A stretch of 64,000 bases of DNA, from NCBI RefSeq assembly GCF_042453785.1, contig NC_091677.1:4497501-4561500 (forward strand). Reading direction: 5' to 3'. The stretch's first letter is position 1; each line of letters opens with the position of its first letter. Positions 4,872 through 64,000 of this stretch are shown piece after piece. The notes beneath the pieces were generated by a model, which made no database searches, had not been told where the DNA came from, and worked only from the letters and a program-made list of their open reading frames with translations. The stretch is from Malus domestica. Its lineage: Eukaryota > Streptophyta > Magnoliopsida > Rosales > Rosaceae. A program made the translations under genes and the position numbers.

Positions 4872-6317
4872 TTAAGACTTCATCCATTCAATAAAGTTCT
4901 TGAAGGTCTCGTACGATTGTCCGCCTTCTTTGATGTTGTTCATGGCCACTTCCTTCAGTTTCGAAGCTCTCGCTGTGAAGTTTTCATCACTGAGAAGTTG
5001 CTCCACCTTGGTCTTGATTTCTCCTTCCGTGATGATCCCGCTTTCATTCTTATCGAATCTCAGTCCCACCTTCCAAATATCGCAAATGTAGCTCTCGTTG
5101 AGCAACTGGTCAGCAAAGTACGGCCAGCACAAGAAAGGAAGCCCACTGCTTAGGCCTTCCAGGGTAGAGTTCCAACCGCAGTGGCTTACAAAGCAAGCAA
5201 TCGAAGGATGACTGAGAACCTTTTGTTGAGGTGCCCATCCGACCATCAGACCGCAAGAGCCTACTCGCTCTTGATATCCTTCCGGGTAGGGATCACTTGC
5301 ACCATCAGTGGTATCCGGCCTCACAACCCACAGAAATGGTCTCCCTGACAACTCAAGAGCCAACGCAAGCTCTTGGAATTGTGTTTGATCGAAAACCGTG
5401 AAGCTGCCAAATGCAACATAGATCACTGATCTGGGTTTCTGTTGATCCAGCCAATCTAAGCATGTTGAGTCTTGTGGCCAGAAGTTTCCTTGTGAGTTCT
5501 CGAGCCGGCTGCTTGCCAAAAGGGGGCCTATTGGTAAAATCTCGGGTGCTAGGGTGAACGCTGCTGGTTCAAGATCATACGCCGAGTTGCAGACAAGCCA
5601 GTCTGCCGCTTTCGCATACTTATTGTTTCTTACTAAAAGTTGAAAGATAATTTTCTGAGTGTCTAGTGTATGAAAGCATGTCCACAGCAAGTTTGCAGTT
5701 TTCATTTTGGGCTGATTTTTTGCCAACTCAATTTCTTGGCTTTTCAACGGAGTTCCTGCCATAAGTGAATCATAACGAGAATATAATTAGTGAATTAGAT
5801 CAAAATAATTCTTTGTTAATCAAATTATTGTACCATCATCGTTGTCGATGATTCCTTCATGAATCAACTTTGGAATATTGAAACTCAATGCCAAAGCTGC
5901 AGCTGATGCAGGCCAAAAGGCAACCCGCCGGATTTTCATTTTCGCTGCCACGTCCAGAGCCCACCCGGAATTCTCATCAGCAAGAACACATGCGACCTTT
6001 TCACTTTCTTCTTCATTGATCTTCTCTATCAACTCCTCCAACTTCCCCGGCATGACTCGTTGAATTCCTTCACACAACAGGCCTAGGTCATTCCTGTCCT
6101 CCTTGGGTTCTAAGCCATCTGGAAGCGATACTAGATGAATACGATCTCCTACATGAGTTTCGCCAGCCAAGGCGTTCACGATGCGTTTGTGATTGAACTC
6201 TGTGTTCACAAATGTGACTTTGAAGCCATGATTGACTAAGCATTGTGACAACTCCATCAAGGGCAGCACATGGCCTTGTGCGGGAAAAGGAACAGCTATT
6301 ATATGTAGGTTGCTCAT
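4872..6317 (-). CDS. UGT83A1-like: UDP-glycosyltransferase, UGT83A1-like (2 exons, intact)
   Basis: CDS complement(join(4872-5755, 5834-6317)), 455 residues. Family-1 (GT1, GT-B fold) enzymes move glucose from UDP-glucose to small molecules in the cytosol; the acceptor cannot be told from sequence. Seen: N-terminal PAQGHVLPLMELS with the catalytic His at residue 16, a VLADENSGWALD block that should hold the partner Asp, SVIYVAFGSF, and a complete 44-residue PSPG box from WAPQQKVL through HCGWNSTLEG to PYFADQ. The final Gln fits a glucose donor. The intron (5756-5833) is phase 1, GT-AG. The protein ends WMKS-TAA. Resemblance to Arabidopsis UGT83A1 is strong from memory (PAQGHVLPL, NTEFNH, CDVWK-type C-half). 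A near-identical copy lies at 24246-25691. Confidence 0.93.
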
Positions 6318-18148: not shown

Positions 18149-21100
18149 TGATTTTCAAGGATTGTTTATATCTTTCATGAATGCATTACAATTGTTTAGC
18201 CGTATATAAACTGGTGAGAAGCCAAGGGTTTGGTGAAAATGTTGGCCAATTGATCACAGCTTCTGGTATAATGGGTCTGAATCATTTTTGACTGGACTTG
18301 TTCCCGAACATAATGGCAGTCAACTTCAATATGTTTCGTCCTCTCGTGAAACACTAGGTTTGATGTTATATGCATTGCTGCCTGATTGTCACAAAATAAA
18401 GACATGGGGAGAGTTGTAAACACTCCTAAGTCGCTCAGAAGACCCTTTAGCCATATCAGCTCACACGCAGTGGAGGCCATTGCATGATACTCGGCTTCAG
18501 CACTTGAGCGTGCGATGACATTTTGTTTTTTGCTCTTCTATTTGACCAAATTTCCACCAACAAATGTACAGTAACCTGTTGTGGACTTACGGTCAATTGC
18601 GTTTCCCGTCCAATCAGCGTCGCAATATCCCATGAGTTGTGTGTTTTCATTCTTCTTCATGATGATGCCACGACCCATAGACCCTTTTAAGTAGCGTAAT
18701 ATCCGCTTAACAAGGTTCAAATGCTCAATTGTGGGAGAGTGCATGACTTGGCTTATGACACTTACGGAATATGTGATGTCAGGTCTGGTGATTGTTAGGT
18801 AGATCAACTTACCAACAAGCCTCTGATAATGGCGTATATCAGTGAGTGGGGTGCCTTCCAAGCTAGGTTTGAGCTTGCTATCCAGAGGAGTAATTGTAGG
18901 TTTGGCATCTCTCATGTTAACTTCCTTGAGCAAATCCAGGATATACTTTCTTTGATTTAGAAATAGTCCATTGTGAGAAGTTGCCATCTATATGCCAAGG
19001 AAATACTTCAATACCCCAAGGTCTTTAATTGCAAACCTTTGTCTGAGTGACTGTTTGAGTTTGAAGATCTTTTCAGCATTATCTCCTGCAATTATTAAGT
19101 CATCGACATAGATCAAGACAACCAATTTGTCCACAGCTCCAGTGCAAACAAATAATGAGGAATCGACATTGCTTCTTTTGAAACCAACATTTGTGAGAAC
19201 TGAGCTTAGCTTGCCATACCAAGCTCGGGGGGATTGTTTCAATCCACAAATTGATTTATGCAATTTGCACACTGAATCATGCTCATTGCTTTGAGGGTGC
19301 CCTGGTGGCAATTTCATATAGACTTCTTCTTCGAGATCACCATGTAAGAATGCATTCTTCACGTCCATTTGGTACATGGACCATCCTTTATTGACAGCCA
19401 CAGACAATAGAACCCTAACTGAGTTCATTTTCGCAACAGGGGCAAACGTTTCTTTGTAATCTACATCGAAAGTTTGAGTGAATCCCCTAGCCACCAACCT
19501 TGCTTTATGTCTCTCAATTGAGCCATCTGAATTGAATTTGATCTTATAAATCCATTTACAACCCACAGCCCTTTTTCCTTTTGGAAGTGTGGTTATACTC
19601 CATGTTTTGTGTTGATCTAGAGCTTTAAGTTCTTCTTGCATTGCTTCTTTCCACACTTCTTTGTTGTTAGCCTCATGGAAATTCTGAGGCTCACTACAAC
19701 TTGCAATGTTACTTAAGAATGCAGCATGAGAGTGAGTCACCTTTTGGTAGGACACATAATTGGAGATTGGATGTTTGGGTTTGTAGGTGACGAAGTCTTG
19801 AAACCTTGGGGGAGGTTGTCTTTCACGCATTGGATTGCTTCGTGGGGCTGTTGTGTGAGTTGTCTCACACTCGTTCACATCTTGAGCCACACTGTGAGGA
19901 TCATCTTGATTGTCACCATCTTCATGTGTTGTACCATCAGAGTGAGGGCCTTCATTGCCACTTTTAGTGAGGGATGACTCAGTGTTGACATGGCTGAGAA
20001 CTCTATTTGTTGAAGCATCAAGGTCGATTCTTAGTAGAGGAAACACCTCCAACATACACTCTCCTTGACTTGTAGTTTCAAGTGACTTGCTGTAAAAAGG
20101 GTCAGTCTCATGGAATCGAACATCTTTAAACACAATCAATTTCCTCAATTGGGTATTATAACACTTATATCCCTTTTGTGTTGAAGAATAGCCAAGGAAA
20201 ATGCATTTAACAGCTTGAGGGTCCAATTTACCTCGATGATGAGGTTGAATATGTACAAAGCAAATACAGTCAAAGACTCTAAGGTGTGAAAGATCGATTT
20301 TCCTACCTTTCATGACCTCAAGGGATGATTTAAACTCCAAGACTCTGCTAGGTAACCTATTTATGATAAAGGTAGCTGCCATGACTCATTGGGACCAAAA
20401 TTTCTTTGGTACATTCATTTGTAGCATTAGTGCTCTAGTTTTTTCAAGTAAGTCACAATTTTTCCTTTCGGCTATGCCATTTTGTTGAGGTGTGCCAACA
20501 CAACTTGTTTGATGCATGATACCATGAGTGCTCAAATATTGTGTCATGATATGAGATGTGTATTCGGTGCCATTGTCAGACCTTAAAGTTTGAATTTGAG
20601 AAGTGAAATGGTTTTTAACAAGATTATGAAAATCCTTAAAAGCTTCTATAACTTCATTCTTAGACTTTAGGAGGTACAATCATGTGGCTCTAGAGAAATC
20701 ATCAACAAATATCACAAAATACTTATAACCATCAAAAGATTCTAAAGTTGGTCCCCATACATCCAAATGGACAAGTTCAAAACACTTACTAGCCCTGGAT
20801 AAGGAAGAGTTAAAAGGTAATCTAGTGGCCTTAGACAAGTGACATGTTTCACATGAAATTACATCCTTCCCTAAGTTTGGAAATAAAGTTGACAAAATGG
20901 GTGGAGAAGGATGAGCTAAACGTTGATGCCACAATTGGTTATCTTGGATAGAGTAGGACTTGGCTTGAAACCCTCTGGGATTACTCTTCGATATGTAATA
21001 GAGACCATCTAGATAAAACCCTTCACCAATCGTCTTCTTGGTTGCACATTCCTGAAAAACAACATTGTGAGGGGATAATATGGCTAAGCAATTTAAGGTA

Positions 21101-22852
21101 TTTGTGATTTTCCCACAGATAGGAGTTGAAATGGAAAGGAATGAACATATAAGGCCACCGACTCAATTTCATCAGATATTAAGTTGATTTTTCCCTTTCC
21201 TAAAACCTTTGCATTTTCACCATTTGCAATTGAAACTTGGGAAGGATTTAATAATTTTTCAAACTTATGAAACTTAGACACATGGTTGGTCATTTGGTCT
21301 GTGGCACCCGAATTTACAACCCAAAAATCATGCAACATATTTATATTAAGAGCAGTTTTGAAAGCTTTCATGATACCTTGCATGTCTTCTTAAGGTACAT
21401 GTTTCGTGTCGGCTAAGAAACCAGCAAACTTGCCTAGCAAAGCTGTTGGGTTTCCGTCTTCAACGTTGTCTATTCGGTCACTTCCAGTCTCTCATTTCTT
21501 TCTTTGAAGATACAATGCAAACTCATTCATGAGTGCAGCTGGATTAGCTGTGAAGTTCTTAACTGTGTCAGACACATGTGAAGAGGAGGCAGACGCATGA
21601 TTTGCTCGATGTACAGTACGGTTCACTCTCTGTGAAACCTTGTTGTCCTTCTTGAAATCAGGCTTTAATTCTGGATGTAAAATCCAACATGTCTCTTTAA
21701 CATGGCCCGTATAGTTGCAGTGTTGGCACTTCAAGTTTGGATGCTTCACTTTGTACTTCTTCTCGTTGATTAGGTAGGCCTTTTCTTTAGATACATTGGC
21801 CTTTGTACCAATGTTCATGACCTTCCTCCTTACTTCCTCACATTGAATTGTTGCACAAATACTGGTGAAGGAAGGAAGTTCAGTGTTCATGAGTATGTGG
21901 CTTCGTAGGTCTTCATATTCTGAGTCGAGACTGGACAGAAGTTGAAATATCTTGTCTTCTTCTGCTTTCGTCCGTAACAAACCAGCATTAGTGGTATGAG
22001 GGCGATATATTTCCAACTCATTCCACATGCTTTTCATGCTACCTAAAAGTTGTACAAAGGGTTTACCTTCTTGTTACAGGTTGGAGATGTCCTTCTTTAA
22101 TTGGAAAACCTATGCAGCATTGTTCTGACTGCCATACATTTCCTTGACAGTCTCCCATAGCTGGAGTGAAGATTCAGAGTAACTGAATATTTCAGCTAGT
22201 TTATGTTCCATGGAATTCAGGAGCCATGACATAACCAGCTGATCCTTGCTAAGCGGATTCATAAGCTGGTGAGGAAGCATCAGGAACTTCGATGCTTCCA
22301 TTTATGAATCCTAACTTGGACCTTCCACCTAAGGCAAACGATACAGCCCTTGACCAAGGCAAATAATTAAACCCATTCAACAAGACTGAGCTTAATCTTT
22401 GATTTGGGTTGATATCCACCTCAGGCATATTCACGGAGGAAAAAACCAGTGACCTTTCAGCATCCGACCCAAGAGGATTGTCTTCAGCCATTTTGAAGAT
22501 TGAACCCGTTCAGATGGTAGTAAAGCAGAAGCATGTTATTTTTCCTGCTCTGATACCATATTGATTTTCAAGGATTGTTTATATCTTTCATGAATGCATT
22601 ACAATTGTTTAGCCGTATATAAGGAGATGAACTCTCCTTGAGTTATGCCACAATCGGTGGACTCCTAAGAAAAGAGAACAAATGATTAGAGACACACTTG
22701 AGTGGTTGCTTTACCCCTAACCCTACACACTTGAGTAGATGCTTTAACCTACTTAAAGAGAACAAATGATTAACCACTTAGGAGACACACTTGAGTGGTT
22801 GCTTTACCCCTAACCCTACACACTTGAGTAGATGCTTTAACCCTACTTCCAA
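18149..22852 (-). mobile_element. Copia LTR retrotransposon relic, minus strand
   Basis: The element lies on the minus strand. Parts in element order: 5' LTR (about 22555-22852, with an internally duplicated tract), a primer site complementary to tRNA-Met next to it (tggtatcagagcagg on the minus strand, about 22542-22556), gag with a CCHC knuckle (about 21500-22490), protease (about 21100-21380), integrase (about 19900-20930), reverse transcriptase with a YVDD motif (about 18550-19800), RNase H (about 18200-18480), then a much shortened 3' LTR (about 18149-18209). Gag-PR-IN-RT-RH is the Copia order. It is broken, with roughly half a dozen or more interruptions. It inserted after the segmental duplication; the empty site is at about 3675. 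Confidence 0.92.
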
Positions 22853-24245: not shown

Positions 24246-25691
24246 TTAAGACTTCATCCATTCAATAAAGTTCTTGAAGGTCTCGTACGATTGTCCGCCT
24301 TCTTTGATGTTGTTCATGGCCACTTCCTTCAGTTTCGAAGCTCTCGCTGTGAAGTTTTCATCACTGAGAAGTTGCTCCACCTTGGTCTTGATTTCTCCTT
24401 CCGTGATGATCCCGCTTTCATTCTTATCGAATCTCAGTCCCACCTTCCAAATATCACAAATGTAGCTCTCGTTGAGCAACTGGTCAGCAAAGTACGGCCA
24501 GCACAAGAAAGGAAGCCCACTGCTTAGGCCTTCCAGGGTAGAGTTCCAACCGCAGTGGCTTATGAAGCAAGCAATCGAAGGATGACTGAGAACCTTTTGT
24601 TGAGGTGCCCAACCGACCATCAGACCGCGAGAGCCTACTCGCTCTTGATATCCTTCCGGGTAGGGATCACTTGTACCATCAGTGGTATCCGGCCTCACAA
24701 CCCACAGAAATGGCCTCCCTGACAAATCAAGAGCCAGCGCAAGCTCTTGGAATTGTGTTTGATCAAAAACCGTGAAGCTGCCAAATGCAACATAGATCAC
24801 TGATCTGGGTTTCTGTTGATCCAGCCAACCTAAGCAAGTGGAGTCTTGTGGCCAGAAGTTTCCTTCTGAGTTCTCGAGCCGGCTGCTTGCCAAAAGCGGG
24901 CCTATTGGTAAAATCTCGGGTGCTAGGGTGAACGCTGCTGGTTCCAGATCATATGCCGAGTTGCAAACAAGCCAGTCTGCCGCTTTCACAGACTTATTGT
25001 TTCTTACTATAACTTGAAAGACGATTTTCTGAGTGGCTATTGTATGAAAGCATGTCCACAGCAAGTCTGCAGTTTTCATTTTGGGAAGATTTTTTGCCAA
25101 TTCAATTTCTTGGCTTTTCAACGGAGTTCCTGCCATAAATGAATCATAACAAAAATATAATTAGTGAATTAGATCAAAATATTTCTTTGTTAATCAAATT
25201 ATTCTTACGGTACCATCATTATCGTCGATGATTCCTTCATGAATCAACTTTGGAATATTGAAACTCAATGCCAAAGCTGCAGCTGATGCGGGCCAAAAGG
25301 CAACCCGCCGGATTTTCATTTTCGCTGCCACATCCAGAGCCCACCCGGAACTCTCATCGGCAAGGACACAAGTGACCTTGTCACTTTCTTCTTCATTGAT
25401 CTTCTCTATCAACTCCTCCAACTTCCCCGGCATGACTCGTTGCATTCCTTCACACAACAGGCCTAGGTCATTCCTGTCCTCCCCGGGTTCTAAGCCATCT
25501 GGAAGTGAAACTAGATGAATACGATCTCCTACATGAGTTTGGCCAGCCAGGGCGATGCGTTTGTGATTGAACTCTGTGTTCACAAATGTGACTTTGAAGC
25601 CATGACTGACTAAGCATTGTGACAACTCCATCAAGGGAAGCACATGGCCTTGTGCCGGAAAAGGAACAGCTATTATATGTAAGTCGCTCAT
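24246..25691 (-). CDS. UGT83A1-like: UDP-glycosyltransferase, UGT83A1-like, second intact copy
   Basis: CDS complement(join(24246-25129, 25214-25691)), 453 residues. It is a paralogue of the gene at 4872-6317: it shares the phase-1 GT-AG intron, His16 in PAQGHVLPL, the VLADESSGWALD block, and a full PSPG box (WAPQQKVL ... HCGWNSTLEG ... PYFADQ) ending in Gln, as in glucose-using enzymes. It is two residues shorter, because two codons after NHKRI are missing. Differences from the first copy are scattered single residues in the acceptor-binding N-half and loops (for example VIVRNNKSVK for LLVRNNKYAK), while the C-half is almost unchanged. The frame is intact and the gene is probably active. Expression cannot be judged, but the first 60 bases upstream match copy 1, so part of the promoter was duplicated too. 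Confidence 0.93.
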
Positions 25692-27820: not shown

Positions 27821-29269
27821 CTAAGACTTCATCCATTTAATAAAGTTCTTGAAGATCTTGGACGATTGGCCGCCTTCTTTGATATTGTTCATGGCCATTT
27901 CCTTCAGTTTCGAAGCTCTCACTTTGAAGTTTTCATCACTGAGTAGTTGCTCCATCTTGTTCTTGATTTCTCCTTTTGTGATGATCCCGCTTTCATTCTT
28001 ATCGAATCTCAATCCCACCTTCCAAATATCGCAAATGTAGCTCTCGTTGAGCAACTGGTCATCAAAGTACGGCCAGCACAAGAAAGGAAGCCCATTGCTT
28101 AGGCCTTCCAGGGTAGAGTTCCAACCGCACTGACTTAAGAAGCAAGCAATCGAAGGATGACTGAGAACCTTTTGTTGAGGTGCCCAACCGACCATCAGAC
28201 CGCGAGAGCCTGCTCGCTCTTGATATCCTTCCGGGTTAGGATCACATGTACCATCAGTGGTATCCGGCCTCACAACCCACAGAAATGGCCTCCCTGACAA
28301 CTCAAGAGCCAAAGCAAGCTCTTGGAATTGTCCTTGATCAAAAACTGTGAAGCTGCCAAATGCAACATAGATCACTGATCTGTGTTTCTATTGATCCAGC
28401 CACTCTAAGCAAGTTGAGGCTTGTGGCCAGAAGTTTCCTTCTGAGTTCTCCAGCCGGTTGCTTGCCAAAATTGGGCCTATTGGTAAAATCTCGGGTGCTA
28501 GGGTGAATGCTGCTGGTTGAAGATCATACGCCGAGTTGCAAACAAGCCAGTCTACCGCTTCCACAAACACATTGTTTCTTACTACAACTTGAAAGGCGAT
28601 TTTCTGAGTGGCTAGTGTATGAAAGCATGTCCACAGCAAGTCTGCAGTTTTCATTTCGGGCAGATTTTTTGCCAACTCAATTTCTTGGCTTTTCAACCGA
28701 GTTCCTGCCATTTGTGAATCATAACAAAAATATAATTAGTGAATTGGATCAAAATATTTATTTGTTAATCTAACTAGTCTTATGGTACCTTCATCGTTGA
28801 TGATTCCTTCATGAATCAACTTTGGAATATTGAAACTCAATGCCAAAGCTGCAGCTGATGCAGGCAAAAGGGCAACCCGGGGGATTTTCATTTTCACTGC
28901 CACGTCCAGAGCCCACCCGGAACTCTCATCAGCAAGGACGCAAGTGACCTTGTCACTTCCTTCTTCATTGATTTTCTCTATTAGCTCCTCCAACTTTCCC
29001 GGCCTGACTCATTGCATAGCTTCACAAACCAGGGCTAGGTCATTCCTGTCCTCCCCGGGTTCTAAGCCATCTGGAAGCGAAACTAGACGAATACAATCTC
29101 CTACATGAGTTTTTCCAGCCAAGGCGTTCACGATGCGTTTGTGGTTGAACTCTGTGTTCACAAATGTGACCTTGAAGCCATGATTGACTAAGCATTGTGA
29201 CAACTCCATCAAGGGAAGCACATGGCCTTGTGCCGGATAAGGAACAGCTATTATGTGTAGGTTGCTCAT
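27821..29269 (-). pseudogene. UGT83A1-like pseudogene, nearly full length, two nonsense codons
   Basis: Third close copy of the local UGT: exon 2 27821-28704, exon 1 28789-29269, same phase-1 intron. Length and splice sites are preserved, and so are His16 (PAQGHVLPL) and nearly all of the PSPG box. It is disabled by two point changes relative to the intact copies: CGA to TGA after EAMQ in exon 1 (about 29007) and CAG to TAG after WLDQ in exon 2 (about 28388). The PSPG box also has SQCGWNS where the others have SHCGWNS, losing the conserved His. Because the rest is clean, inactivation is recent. A transcript may still be made, but the first stop would truncate the protein after about 86 residues. 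Confidence 0.9.
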
Positions 29270-57535: not shown

Positions 57536-57709
57536 AAACGGGTCGTGTCTGTCGTATTCGTGTCGTTTTCGTGTAACACATGTTAACTTAACGGATCGTG
57601 TCGTGTCACACCTTGGGTAAAGTGACTCGACCCTTTATGACCCGTTAAGAAAAATATATTTTTTTCTTAAATTTGCACATACCACACTTTACCACATAAA
57701 TATTACTTC
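57536..57709. mobile_element. Fragment of a hAT-like end (GGCCTGGCAAACGGGTC)
   Basis: The sequence ggcctggcaaacgggtcgtg followed by repeated gtcgtgtc words is a terminal region I associate with plant hAT elements. Only this end is seen, because the LTR-type element at 57710 begins a short way inside it. No target duplication can be defined. Confidence 0.5.
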
Positions 57710-58040
57710 TGTTGATGCACAAAATCAGCGATGACTTTGGTACAACAGAAAGTGTCAAGTTTTGTGACCTTCGCTTGGTTGCTTCGGTCACTAGTGAGGA
57801 TAAGTACGTAAATGAATAGAGACAGAGAAGCAAACACAGGATGTACGTGGTTCACCCAGATTGGCTACGTCCACGGAGTAGAGGAGTTCTCATTAATTGT
57901 GAAGGGTTTACACAAATACATAGGTTCAAGCTCTGGTTTAGTGAGTTCTAGTGAATAGTTTAGTACAAAATGACATTAGAGATTATTGTGGGAGAATGAT
58001 CCCTATTTATAGAAGAGAGTTTCTAGTTTTGTTCTAATAT

Positions 58041-58140
58041 TGACACATGTCGTGTTGTGATTGGCTTCTGATGTTGACACGTGTCGTGCTGTGATTGGCT
58101 TCTGATGTCGACACGTGTCGCGTTGTGATTGGCCTTCTGG
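58041..58140. repeat. Three 34-bp repeats with GACACGTGTC palindromes
   Basis: Units start at 58041, 58075 and 58109. Each reads tgacacgtgtcgtgctgtga then ttggcttctgatgt with small changes. The centre GACACGTGTC is a palindrome containing the plant G-box core CACGTG (CATGT in unit 1). Confidence 0.9.
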
Positions 58141-60365
58141 TTGAAGGGAAACTCTTCTGGGTCCTTGACGGTATAACGTTGACCGGTGCTCAGTAGTTTC
58201 GGGATTAGTCAAGTATGGTACAAACAGTGCTCCCCTAAGTTCCCGAGTGAGGGAAGCTCATCGGTTGGGGACTTGCAAGATCCAAGCCGCTGAGTAATCA
58301 CGAAACTTCTAAGTACCGAGGTGTGGTATCGTCTTCACTTGCCTTATCTTTCTCATAGGTAGATGTGACATCTTCTCTGGAAGTACGCTTCCTCCATCCA
58401 GGGGTGGTATCTTTAACCGATGAAGATGCACAAGGTAATGTATCAATTTCACTTGAAGCTTACTTGTAGTTTCGGGCTTGGTCAAGTGCGATACAAACCC
58501 TATAGTAGGAGTCCCCCAAGTCGCCGAGCTAGGAGATTTGCCGAAAGAGGTGACAGACAAGGTAAGCAGTCAAACTTCCAAGTAAGCAACCCAGGATCAG
58601 AGGTTTGACTTCGGCTTCCGGTTGATTGTTCTCCTTCTCCTTGTCTCTCATTCAACTGCCAGGATAAGGAGAAGCAAATGGATAAGAGATGATATGAGAT
58701 ACTTTTGCTTTTGAAGAAGTAACTTTCCACAGGCTTATTCTTGAACTGTGCTGGAGGGTTTTCTGGTTCCCTTCAGAGTATAAGGCCGACTCAAGAATTT
58801 GAGGGTCAAAACAAGTCCATCAAATCTAGAGTACGTTCGACCTTGATGATATGGGATACTTTTGCTGTTGACGGAATAATGAATGTGGTATGGAAAGGTG
58901 TCGTGCTGTAGTGATCTGTTTCAGCTCACCGTTGAACCTTCTGCTTCAATCTTTTGCATGGCAGAAGTGGTGTGCAACCTTTGCATTTAAATGGTCCTTC
59001 AGAACATTCCTTCATAGTGACTCATCCACGCTTGGCAGCTTCAGTGTAAAGAGCCAATATCTGATCAACTGTCATGAGGTATTTGCCGGTGGAATTCGTG
59101 ACCTTGACAGCAGTTGAGGATGAGTACTCGAGAGCAATGCTAAGTAAGCAACCAGACAAAGGTTCCAGGCAGTCAGTTCCAAATTGGAGGTTTGATTTCA
59201 GGTTCCGACTGACTGCTCTCTTTCTCCTTGTCCTGCAGGTGTGAACAAGGATAAAGACAAAGACAGGGAGAAAGCATGATATGGGATACTCTTGCTTTCG
59301 ACCCTGATGATATGAGATACTCTTGTTCTTGGTGTGGCTTATTTGCTGAGGTATTATCGGGGGGAAATAAAGCTGAGTATTTCGAGAGGTTATGTTGAGG
59401 GTGCCTTCTCGAATGCGAGAAAGGGTTGAGCATTTTTGCAGGTTTGCCTGTCCGTTGAGGAGGGAGGTCGATGTATATAGGGATTTCCCAATAACAAGTA
59501 GTAATGCTATTCCTTTACCCTTCTTGGTCACATCAATGTAGTGGGAGCTGCCAGCTTCACGTGTTTTAATTTTGTCAGAGCACTTTGAAAAAGTGGTATG
59601 TGGTATCTGGAAAGCTGATGTTACGTGTGAAGATTACAGACAAGATTTATCTAAGGAAATCTGGCTCTCGAAGTTCTGAGAGTTGTGCCTCTTCGGTTTT
59701 CGAACAAGCAATCCCGTCGAGGATCTGACTCTCAAGATTCGGAAAGCGGTGCTACTCCGGTTTTTGAGAAAGTAATTATGTTGGGAGTCTTTTCTCGAAT
59801 GTGAGTAAAGGTTGGACGTTCTTGCCAACCTGTCTTGCCGCAAAACACGGAGGTCGACACACATAGAGACTTTCCAGTTGTCAAGCAGTGGTGCTGTTCC
59901 TTTACCCTTGTGGGTAATAGTAGGGTAGCTGGAACTTCGAAATTCTCGTGCCTAAACTTCGTCAGAGATCTTTGACAAAGTTATATGTGGTACCCGAGGA
60001 GTTGATGGTGCATATGGAGAGCGGTGATTGAACAGTAAGATTCACGTGCTTTCTACTTCACCAGAAATCTTCGACAGATTGCCTGTAATTTCCGCAAAGC
60101 TGAGTGTGCATGTGACAGGTGCTGACGAGGCTGAAAAAGCAGGTGCTTCTTCGATTTCTGAGATCGGCCCTCGTGGTCTCTGAGCAGCCCAGCTTTTGAG
60201 AAAGCAAACGCCTCTTTGATTTCTGAAGCTCCGTCGAGTGCAGATTTTTATAGAGGCTGGCATTAAGTTCCACAGCACACTTGAATCTCTACCAGTAGAA
60301 GCTCATTTCTTGCACTTCTAAGATCTTGATTTGTCTGACCTCTTCCCTCTTCAACACATTTGAAA

Positions 60366-61040
60366 ATGTCTGGACCCTCCGACCGTCGTTTTGACTTGAA
60401 CCTTGGAGAAGAGACAGCCACGCCTTCTCCAGACAACATATGGCGCCCATCTTTCATATCCCATACTGGTCCTCTTACCGTTGGGGATTCTGTGATGAAG
60501 AATGATATGACCGCTGCAGTGGTGGCCAGGAACCTTTTCACTCCCAAAGATAACAGACTACTTTCCAAACGGTCTGATGAGTTGGCTGTTAAGGACTCTC
60601 TGGCTCTTAGTGTTCAGTGTGCAGGTTCTGTGTCTAATATGGCCCAACGCCTATTTGCTAGAACCCGCCAAGTTGAATCATTGGCTGCTGAAGTGATGAG
60701 TCTCAAACAGGAGATTAGAGGGCTCAAGCATGAGAATAAGCAGTTGCACCGGCTCGCCCATGACTATGCTACAAACATGAAGAGGAAGCTTGACCAGATG
60801 AAGGAATCTGATGGTAAGGTTTTACTTGATCATCAGCGGTTTGTGGGTTTGTTCCAAAGGCATTTATTGCCTTCGTCCTCTGGGGCTGTACCTGGTAATG
60901 AAGCTTCAAATGATGAACCTCCAATGCCTCCTCCTTCTGGGGTTTTGTCAAGTACTGAGGCTCCGGATAACCACCCTCCGGTGCTTTCTCTTTCTGGGGC
61001 TCTACCGACTGCTGAGACTTCCCCTAAGCAACCTTTGTGA
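60366..61040 (+). CDS. 224-residue coiled-coil protein of unknown function carried by the repeat element
   Basis: Intact frame, ATG at 60366, TGA at 61038-61040. Seen: N-terminal MSGPSDRRFDLNLGEE, whose DLNL resembles an EAR-type repressor motif; a conserved-looking middle (NDMTAAVVARNLFTPKDNRLLSKRSDE in part); a predicted coiled coil at about residues 100-150 (ARTRQVESLAAEVMSLKQEI, GLKHENKQLHRL); a basic stretch MKRKLDQMKES; and a Pro/Ser-rich tail made of three imperfect repeats starting SGAVPGNE, SGVLSSTE and SGALPTAE. There is no zinc finger, protease, integrase or reverse transcriptase motif. I do not know a function. I recall similar frames being very frequent in apple and pear genomes, which fits a repeat-borne gene. 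It could be a gag-like substitute, a DNA/RNA-binding accessory protein, or a captured host gene. Confidence 0.75.
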   Translation: MSGPSDRRFDLNLGEETATPSPDNIWRPSFISHTGPLTVGDSVMKNDMTAAVVARNLFTPKDNRLLSKRSDELAVKDSLALSVQCAGSVSNMAQRLFARTRQVESLAAEVMSLKQEIRGLKHENKQLHRLAHDYATNMKRKLDQMKESDGKVLLDHQRFVGLFQRHLLPSSSGAVPGNEASNDEPPMPPPSGVLSSTEAPDNHPPVLSLSGALPTAETSPKQPL

Positions 61041-62139
61041 AGGCTCCCTTTTGTTTGTTTATTTTGACTCATGTATATGTACATATTTGTGGCTTATCGA
61101 AAATATTAATAAATAAGCTTTGCTTCATTTCAACATATTGTGTTAAATACACCAAAGCCTTCTTCATAAAGTTCTTTGAATTTTTTCTTTTGTTGAAACC
61201 TGTATTGTTGAAGCTTTGTGAGTGAAGCGTGTAGTTTGAGGTAGTGTTCCCTTAATTTCCCGAGTGAGGAAAACTTCTCGGTTGGAGACTTGAAAAATCC
61301 AAGTCACTGAGTGGTTGTGAGACTGCCGAGTATCAAGGTGCAGTAGCATATGGTGGGAGTCCCCCAAGTCTTCAGGCGAAGAGAGTTGCCGAATGAGGTG
61401 TCTCGCTTGTTACTAATTTGTCAAAGTAACGAATCCTTGTTTCGATGTCACACATTCGTATATGCTTTATCTAAAAATATTTCCAACTTTTGTGTGTTTG
61501 ATGCTGCATGCTATTGACTAGACAAGATCAAGTGCAATTAGTAGCTTTTCTCTCTTTTTCATCTTTTCTTTGGTGGAATTGCTTTTCGTTTCCACTAATC
61601 AGCCTGAGTGGATGCAAGATAACACCATTCTCTATAGCTCAGATTGCAAATTCGTCTTCATGAAAGTTGTTCCTTATCTTGTGAACTACAACATATCCAA
61701 ATTTGAGATCCATCGGAGTAGTACAACTTCAGAAATTAAAGTATGATGAGTAACTGTTCATCAATTTTCTGTTAACCCGTCAGACTTGTTGTGAGCTTCG
61801 AAATTCCATTTTCTCTTGTTCAGATCAACATACTTTCTTCATGGAAGTTGTTCCTCATCATCTCTTCCATAACATATCAAAAATTCAGAACAAACTAACG
61901 GTTGAATATTTCCAGATCTTCGAAACACCGCAGCAGCTTTGAAGCTTGCAGAAATCTGACCGTCATGTTTGGAGCTTCAACACTCTAACTTTCGTCGCTC
62001 AAATAGAAAAATTTCCTTCGTGAAAGTTGTTCATCTGCTCAAGAACTATAAGATGTCCAAAATTCAGCTCCACTGGAATTAGCTTCGCACTATCTTGATG
62101 AAGAGTGTGTGAAGCTTTTATGTGTTTTGGTGTTGAAAT

Positions 62140-62404
62140 TTGGTATTGTAGGTGAAGCTTTGGGGTTGAAGCTTGATAGGTGAAGCTTTATAGGTGAAGC
62201 TTTGGTGTTGAAGCTTTATAGGTGAAGCTTTGTGTTTGAAGCTTTATAGGTGAAGCTTTGGGGTTGAAGCTTGATAGGTGAAGCTTGATAGGTGAAGCTT
62301 TGTGTTTGAAGCTTTATAGGTGAAGCTTTGGTGTTGAAGCTTTATAGGTGAAGCTTTGTGTTGAAGCTTTATAGGTGAAGCTTTGGGGTTGAAGCTTTAT
62401 AGGT
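62140..62404. repeat. Minisatellite of gaagcttt / ataggtgaagcttt units
   Basis: More than ten short units (aggtgaagctttggggttg, aagctttataggtgaagct and close variants) follow one another with spacing of about 17 or 34 bases. The shared core is TGAAGCTT, which includes a HindIII-type palindrome AAGCTT. Confidence 0.9.
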
Positions 62405-62784
62405 GAAGCTTTTGTTGGCACCATAAATTGATTGTGCTTCGCACTATCTTGATGAACATAGTGCGAAGCTTGGGAGATTGATACTTGTCCTCCATTGATG
62501 AAGCTTTTGTTGGCACCATAAATTGATTGTGCTTCGCACTATCTTGATGAACATAGTGCGAAGCTTTGGAGATTGATACTTGTCTTCCATTGATGAAGCT
62601 TTTGTTGGCACCATAAATTGATTGTGCTTCGCACTATCTTGATGAACATAGTGCGAAGCTTTGGAGATTAATACTTGTCCTCAATTGATGAAGCTTTTGT
62701 TGGCACCATAAATTGATTGTGTTTCGCACTATCTTGATGAACATAGTACGAAGCTTTTGAGATTGATATTTGTCCTCCATTGAT
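62405..62784. repeat. 95-bp tandem repeat, four copies, each with a perfect 12-bp hairpin
   Basis: Units start at 62405, 62500, 62595 and 62690, and a fifth begins at 62785, so the period is exactly 95. Each contains GCTTCGCACTAT, the loop cttgatgaac and the inverse ATAGTGCGAAGC; the last copy carries changes in the stem. The unit ends with ccattgatgaagcttttgtt. Confidence 0.95.
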
Positions 62785-62817
62785 GAAGCTTTTGTTGAAT
62801 TTCCCAATTTCCAATTT

Positions 62818-62819
<2 letters not shown>

Positions 62820-62859
<40 letters not shown>
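62820..62859. repeat. Poly-T run of 40
   Basis: Uninterrupted T run between the 95-bp array and the following segment. It may be a poly-A tail in antisense orientation or simple slippage. Confidence 0.95.
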
Positions 62860-62860
<1 letters not shown>

Positions 62861-63309
62861 GGAAAACTAGAAATTTGAAAATGTGGGAGAGACAACGTAT
62901 ACAAATTTTGCTTCCATACTGTTAAGCGAGAGATTGTGATGCAAGCCACATCTTGTAGTAGTCGAAGGTTTGGATGAACCATATAAATTGAATTTGCTTC
63001 GAACAGTCTTGATCAAAAGCGTTTGAAGCGTTCTATGAGTTGTAGTGTTTGCATTGTTACAGAGGAGAAATGTCTGAAGCAGATGCAAGAGGGCTGAAGA
63101 GCTTGATCTTCGTATACCATGCATTGAAGCCATTGTTGGCTTGCAATAAGACTTTGTTGGTGACTATAGCTCTTGTTAGGCATAAGTGCTCCCCTAGTTG
63201 AGTTGTAAAGCTTGATGGTTTTTGATTATTTGTGAATGCTAGGAGTTCACATGTACAAGTTGTACCACTCGTCTTCTGGTTAATGGAATGAATGGTAGGT
63301 TGCTTTCAT

Positions 63310-63680
63310 CACGTGGTTGGTGGTACGAATGTGAATTCCTTAATCACCTTTCATCACATTTCATCACCTGGTTGGTGACATGAAGGAGAGTACGCGTTGT
63401 ACATTTCATCACCTGGTTGGTGGCATGAAGGAAAGTACGCGTTGTACATTTCATCACCTAGTTGGTGGCATGAAGATGAGTTCCTTCTTCACCTGATTGG
63501 TGATAAGGGTGGCAAGTTTCCAAATAATATTAGAGTACGAGTTGTACATTTCATCACCTAGTTGGTGGTACGAAGGTGAGTTCCTTCATCACCTAGTTGG
63601 TGAGAATAAGGGCATTTCATCACCTAGTTGGTGGTACGAAGGTGAGTTCCTTCATCACCTAGTTGGTGAGAATAAGGGCA
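63310..63680. repeat. Irregular array of TCACCTRGTTGGTG units
   Basis: About ten copies of tcacctggttggtg or tcacctagttggtg are spaced by about 21-46 bases with gcatgaaggagagtacgcgt or acgaaggtgagttccttc between them. Each copy holds the inverted pair CACC/GGTG. Confidence 0.9.
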
Positions 63681-63788
63681 AGGTGTCGAGGCACATTGTG
63701 GCAAGTGTCGAGGCACATTGTGGCAAATGTCGAATGACACAAAGTGTGTTGAACCCTTTCGAAGCACAGTTGGCTTATGTATGGATAT

Positions 63789-63930
63789 GTTGGAATGTAT
63801 GATGTTTATGCATGAATGTGTTGGAATGTATGATGTTTATGTATGAATGTATTGGAATGTATGATGTTTATGTATGAATGTGTTGGAATGTATGATGTTT
63901 ATGTATGAATGTGTTGGAATGTATGATGTA
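63789..63930. repeat. 31-bp tandem repeat, four copies and a partial fifth
   Basis: Units begin gttggaatgtatgatgttta at 63789, 63820, 63851, 63882 and 63913. They are almost identical. Confidence 0.95.
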
Positions 63931-64000
63931 GATCCTTTGTATAGTCTTGTTGACACATACTTAGATTTTGTTTTGTATTGGAAACATTTGCGTTGAAGCT

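Follow-up and report, generated by a model that had tools for sequence, protein, structure and literature searches.

Antisense genes are known from plant retrotransposons without an established function. Antisense open reading frames (ORFs) between pol and the 3' LTR form an already described class, whose functions are stated as unknown in the sources that treat them (PMC7264820; PMC11963269). The original prediction for the ORF studied here was thus right that no function had been described, but the class to which the ORF belongs had been. In the Retand lineage, antisense ORFs are reported within a pol-3' LTR region of 2.9-6.6 kb, and TRP28 (PF04195) is given as present in the antisense ORF in 97% of Retand clusters (Vicient, 2025, PMC11963269). 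The maize element Grande carries gene23, an antisense gene with its own promoter, demonstrated by experiment, and a nuclear protein product, as recounted in PMC7264820. PvRetro13 and other elements have antisense ORFs with SMC-type domains (PMC7264820; PMC11963269). HODOR (KX869746) is described as a high-copy apple LTR element of 9,716 bp (PMC13334179; PMC6901071; PMC8558331). Among the open-licence literature searched, no title or start of an abstract was found that describes the present ORF or a cross-lineage transfer of the kind reported below.

The window, which is the whole 64,000-nucleotide stretch of Malus domestica DNA that was analysed, contains an ATG-started ORF of 224 codons plus a stop at 60366-61040 on the plus strand, exactly as originally predicted and antisense to gag-pol. 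No longer ATG frame occurs in window positions 58227-64000, and only one of 500 dinucleotide shuffles of this region reached 224 codons. A heptad pattern is recognizable over residues 88-150 (hydrophobic fraction of 0.78 at positions a and d, as high in 1 of 5000 shuffles), and searches of Pfam and PDB gave weak matches of coiled-coil type only, the best Pfam match having an E of 0.013 and all 14 lying far below their own cut-offs. Because of the heptad test and these weak Pfam matches, the ORF product is predicted to be a small coiled-coil protein. The predicted coiled coil, the basic patch (a KRK run beginning at residue 139) and the Pro/Ser tail of the original prediction were all recovered. 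Its DLNL motif is also present, at residues 10-13, and did not vary among 20 aligned ORF proteins, but the EAR-like label did not hold. Strict EAR patterns are LxLxL and DLNxxP; neither occurs in the 224 residues, and the reading of the protein as an EAR-motif repressor was rejected on these motifs. No nuclear localization pattern, either K[KR]x[KR] or bipartite, was found in the protein. Relatives of the ORF were sought in the source genome and in viral contigs; the latter yielded none, either for the ORF or for the reverse transcriptase (RT) piece.

The ORF lies inside an element that extends from 57710 to about 70778 (13.07 kb) and is cut by the window end. Its 3' LTR (57710-58226, minus strand, 517 bp) differs at one position from a second LTR, which was located at window-equivalent positions 70262-70778 by self-comparison of the window neighborhood, and the element is flanked by the target-site duplication ACTTC (57705-57709 and window-equivalent 70779-70783). 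A pair of LTRs around the ORF, which the original prediction had proposed as a check, was thereby found. On the minus strand, gag-pol runs from window-equivalent 64147 (the integrase stop) to the 5' LTR edge at 70261, with gag (PF03732, in two pieces, one over the cut-off and one under), RT, RNase H, a second RNase H (RVT_3), the integrase zinc domain and rve; the order in pol is RT_RNaseH, RVT_3, H2C2, rve. Since gag-pol is on the minus strand and the ORF on the plus strand, the ORF is antisense and between pol and the 3' LTR. The integrase reaches its stop 147 bp beyond the window end, so gag-pol was invisible to the original prediction. Its description of the region as free of gag or pol is true only as far as the window reaches, and its view of the element as lacking replication genes was mistaken, although gag-pol is interrupted in the window copy and falls into several open pieces. 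Several of 53 listed relatives have one stop-free frame of 2,074-2,089 codons around RT. The window element is a recently inserted retrotransposon with replication genes.

The pol-3' LTR region of the window element (58227-64000 within the window, minus strand) measures about 5.9 kb up to 64147. The satellites predicted for it are real: tandem-repeat arrays with units of 14, 95, 45, 66, 22 and 31 bp, among others, occupy 62149-63929. A 40-T homopolymer run was seen at 62820-62859, on the pol side of the arrays, and a 27-base homopolymer run occupies a similar spot in a related copy on contig C16 (L074 7565-7591). The association of ORF and pol extends to other copies. When 53 pol places were compared with the 229 ORF places then known, 10 were found to have an ORF 4.9-8.2 kb away on the other strand (control, 0); five of these pairs are 4.9-5.7 kb apart and five 7.8-8.2 kb. 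On C1-C3, with places hand-picked from the exact A-type motif matches, linkage was seen in seven of eight.

The second RNase H lies between RNase H and integrase in the window element, an arrangement described as the Ogre/Retand order (Neumann et al., 2019, PMC6317226), and the long pol-3' LTR region (58227-64147) holds an antisense ORF. By domain order and region layout, the window element appears to be a Retand-type (Tat clade) Ty3/gypsy element. It resembles the Retand lineage as characterized in PMC11963269 in its long pol-3' LTR region with tandem repeats and an antisense ORF, in an LTR of several hundred bp and in the presence of a TRP28-like ORF in many sibling copies. It differs from that account in that the present ORF shows no TRP28 domain and is an additional antisense ORF, retained in copies in which no TRP28 was found, and in that a different element type has the ORF unit as well. 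Grande gene23, as presented in PMC7264820, likewise runs antisense in the interval from pol to the 3' LTR; the likeness is one of description, the counterpart of its promoter here is a promoter-like site only, and the nuclear localization is that of gene23. The antisense ORFs of the PvRetro13 type are alike in strand, position and a coiled-coil type of product (PMC7264820; PMC11963269), but no SMC family matched the present ORF in Pfam at E up to 1. HODOR is alike as a high-copy apple LTR element, a comparison made by length and abundance alone, and its reported length of 9,716 bp contrasts with 13.07 kb for the window element and about 11.4 kb for the second host element described below.

Many sibling copies carry a TRP28-like ORF in addition. 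A genome search with PF04195, in which the best 150 of 421 candidates were scored, returned many places at 24.7 bits with a 362-codon frame. Among the 150, 51 were on the strand of a known ORF place and 2.9-4.2 kb downstream of it (control, 1), and 46 of 85 TRP28 frames of at least 284 codons were linked to an ORF place. Three of the five pairs with a pol-ORF distance of 7.8-8.2 kb have a listed TRP28 place. The one TRP28-like protein that was read matched PF04195 with an E of 0.00035, under the cut-off. The 224-residue protein itself has no TRP28 domain by Pfam, and the idea that it is a detached part of the TRP28 protein was rejected for lack of homology (blastp best E 0.89). TRP28 was not found in 20 other frames of the window pol-3' LTR region, and tblastn at E 0.001 gave no trace of it in the window element or in the element at C16:665462, both of which are recent; the LTRs of the latter are 100% identical over 512 bp and its gag-pol forms two long frames. 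Thus a TRP28 ORF would not be needed in cis. The element family appears to have two antisense ORFs, with only the 224-codon type found in some recent copies. The 362-codon frame (L080:120-1199) recurs at dozens of listed places with the same score, just under the Pfam cut-off for PF04195 (26.2 bits), and surveys that apply the cut-off would therefore miss the TRP28-like ORF.

The genome searched comprises 651 Mb in 19 contigs. At the DNA level 3,775 first-look candidates were obtained, the best 40 of which were scored, all near 100%, and a protein search scored the best 150 of 10,205 candidates, with no stop in 147 and one TAG in three; such lists are ranked by similarity, and openness among the copies listed is biased. 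Exact short motifs occurred at 550 A-type and 204 B-type places, and a type D pattern allowing at most one mismatch occurred at 821 places, counts that overlap the first pattern (503 places) and cannot be summed with it. The D pattern was a degenerate one for distant homologs; both copies read, of the 821 places, belong to a further group-A-like subfamily, and one of the two has DLNF instead of DLNL. Sixty-seven loci were aligned with the window, and group counts exclude three partial matches (L014, L026, and L033), L016, which is the same place as L042, and L001 and L010, which are the window itself. All 28 group A sequences are open, a proportion biased by the choice of this group by similarity. 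In group C, six older A-type copies, two are open and four broken. Among the 30 group B loci, 11 are open to the B stop, three end within a few codons of the B stop or past it, and 16 are broken before codon 190. The B protein is shorter by 14 residues, which fall into two in-frame gaps (1 and 13 residues), and B ORFs are 88-91% identical to the window ORF in the best stretch. The ORF tree has no outgroup.

The comparison of groups A and B supports purifying selection on the putative protein. Fixed A-B differences, each base being at 80% or more in its own group, comprise 20 nonsynonymous and 24 synonymous changes and no stop, and variants within B comprise 193 nonsynonymous changes, nine stops and 88 synonymous changes (Fisher p = 0.0036; p = 0.0031 with stops counted as nonsynonymous, 20:24 vs. 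202:88). Second codon positions account for 5 of the 44 fixed differences and 83 of 290 within-B variants (p = 0.016). NG86 estimates between the window copy and 11 full-length B copies were dN 0.067 and dS 0.233, a ratio of 0.29, with 0.22 for codons 1-170 and 0.61 for the Pro/Ser tail. The ratio among full-length B copies was 0.47; this also is below 1, partly because open copies alone were used, and makes for an imperfect neutral yardstick. Of the two tests, the one that sets fixed against private changes carries more weight. Compared over 17 A loci and 29 B loci, the groups differed at 27 of 492 sites in codons 1-170, 15 of 123 sites in codons 171-225 and 80 of 548 sites in the upstream flank; the downstream flank was hardly alignable (14 sites). 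The frame thus appears as an island of conservation. The near-identity of the ORF among A copies was dropped as a sign of selection. The non-coding part of the shared block is about equally identical, so recent exchange explains the near-identity and the case for selection rests on A vs. B. The original prediction suggested that the protein matters to the element; both the fixed differences and the ratio of 0.29, well away from the value near 1 that it had named as contrary evidence, support the view that selection has kept the protein. Stops at random places, which it had also named, are indeed scattered through old copies (16 of 30 in B, 4 of 6 in C) but are absent from the 28 A sequences and from the fixed differences.

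The frame is accompanied by a candidate promoter and a candidate terminator. A TATA-like site, GATTTTTATAGAGG, lies at 60243-60256 on the plus strand, about 115 nt before the ATG, and TTTATAGAGG precedes the ATG by 95-135 nt in all 27 A loci, in 24 of 30 B loci and in 5 of 6 C loci. A putative poly(A) signal, AATAAA, lies at 61108-61113 on the same strand, 67 nt after the stop codon; where the stop context was found, AATAAA follows within 130 nt at 25 of 26 loci in A, at 22 of 24 in B and at all 4 in C. The distance is mostly 67 nt in A and mostly 85-92 nt in B, even though B has a 3' flank unrelated to that of A.

The ORF and these two sites behave in sequence comparisons as an exchangeable unit. 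Taken in 100-bp bins, the block at 58510-61230 (plus strand) shows 96-100% identity with the C16:665462 copy, whereas the two elements are 87% identical in the LTR, 89.5% in pol and 83.9% in the gag region. Beyond 61230 the bin identity drops to 93, 79, and 40%, which places the pol-side edge of the block between 61231 and 61430. The same drop is seen in most other A copies and is absent in L029, L032, L038, L039, and L040. Flank identities were taken from global alignment; a first comparison was lowered by internal repeats (92% for the window against itself), and its coverage alone was used.

The unit is also present in a second, distantly related LTR element type of the same genome. Examination beyond the ORF flanks covered two elements of A type and one of group B. 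The B copy L059, read from LTR to LTR with L072 and L073, sits in an element of about 11.4 kb with LTRs of about 2.15 kb that are 97.8% identical. Its gag (PF03732, E 4e-18), protease and primer site (TGGTGCCGTTGCCGGGG) differ from those of the window element, and its blastn match to the window element is confined to about 58620-61049. No RT or integrase was found in it by tblastn and no matching target duplication was seen. We propose that the group B host may be Athila-type from its LTR of about 2.15 kb, its gag and its primer site; it differs from that type in that the element read whole lacks RT and integrase and carries an antisense unit. Gag or protease matches to the L059 element lie beside the ORF at 26 of 30 B loci; L042, L060, and L071 have instead an integrase 29-31% identical to that of the window element, and L054 has neither. 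Downstream flanks of the B loci fall into groups of 19, 5, and 3 loci with three single ones, and 27 of the 29 other B loci have at least 92% of the upstream flank (1.5 kb) in common with L059. Among the matches listed on C1-C10, B-type copies seem concentrated in the middles of the chromosomes. Five B-type motifs on C4 (G000:C4:7271559, 7303618, 7335676, 7367632, and 7399736, plus strand) lie about 32.0 kb apart, a spacing that would fit either large blocks repeated in tandem or an assembly effect.

We put at about 85% the probability that the ORF is an antisense accessory gene of a two-LTR, gag-pol-bearing Retand-type element, under purifying selection and present in hundreds of copies, with sibling copies that bear a second antisense ORF (TRP28), and shared as a unit between subfamilies and with another LTR element type. 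The proposal that came with the original prediction, a non-autonomous element that keeps a single protein gene, is very improbable for the window element, which has gag-pol and relatives with stop-free frames over 2,000 codons, and holds for the L059 element, with its gag and neither RT nor integrase by tblastn. If the antisense RNA rather than the protein mattered, pairing with the sense RNA to regulate or silence the element, the frame would be a by-product; conservation of the TATA-like site and poly(A) signal would suit such a role, and a role for double-stranded RNA is raised in PMC7264820. Codon-level constraint (20:24 vs. 202:88), the depletion of second positions among fixed differences (5 of 44 vs. 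83 of 290, p = 0.016) and an A-B length difference that keeps the frame make it improbable. We regard as equally improbable that the ORF is a fragment of a host gene, captured and carried by retrotransposons without a function. Coiled-coil proteins are common in hosts, and the search for relatives covered the source genome and viral contigs only; against this stand the purifying selection between subfamilies, the element sequence that adjoins the ORF in the loci whose flanks were compared and an antisense orientation unlike the known transduction described in PMC7264820.

The strongest competitor concerns group B, where the unit may have entered once, by recombination or nested insertion, and have been a passenger since; this falls somewhat short of an even chance. 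The decay of B copies (16 of 30 broken) speaks for it, as does the lack of any fixed ORF difference between its two host variants, B1 with 5 loci and B2 with 19. The flank that L059 shares with 27 of 29 other B loci and the 204 exact B-type places indicate that the unit was amplified with its B host, which weighs against it.

As to how an antisense accessory gene might act, the ORF would be transcribed antisense from its own promoter, and its small coiled-coil product would dimerize and act in trans within the nucleus, where it would control expression of the elements or nuclear steps in their life cycle. Grande gene23 is a precedent for a separate promoter and a nuclear product. We hold this combination of own promoter, dimeric coiled-coil protein and nuclear action in trans only tentatively, at somewhat less than even odds. 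The unit could then be useful to any LTR element that acquires it, with exchange most likely by template switching between co-packaged RNAs. Still more doubtful is the broader proposal of an accessory gene that plant LTR retrotransposons can hand on to one another. Equipped with a promoter and a terminator, the antisense ORF would have moved between Tat/Retand subfamilies and across the Tat-Athila divide within a single genome because its trans-acting protein benefits its carrier. A conserved ORF without TRP28 that is common to two element types makes the notion of a trans-acting accessory benefit testable, and the sharing of the unit suggests that such elements may exchange genes as units.

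Outside the element, the window contains UDP-glycosyltransferase genes at 4875-5762 and 24249-25136 (minus strand), both of which match PF00201, and a further stretch in pieces at 27821-28711 (minus strand) that is UDP-glycosyltransferase-like by its frames. A broken Ty1/copia element lies at 18538-22037 (minus strand), with an RVT_2 match and a weak copia gag match.
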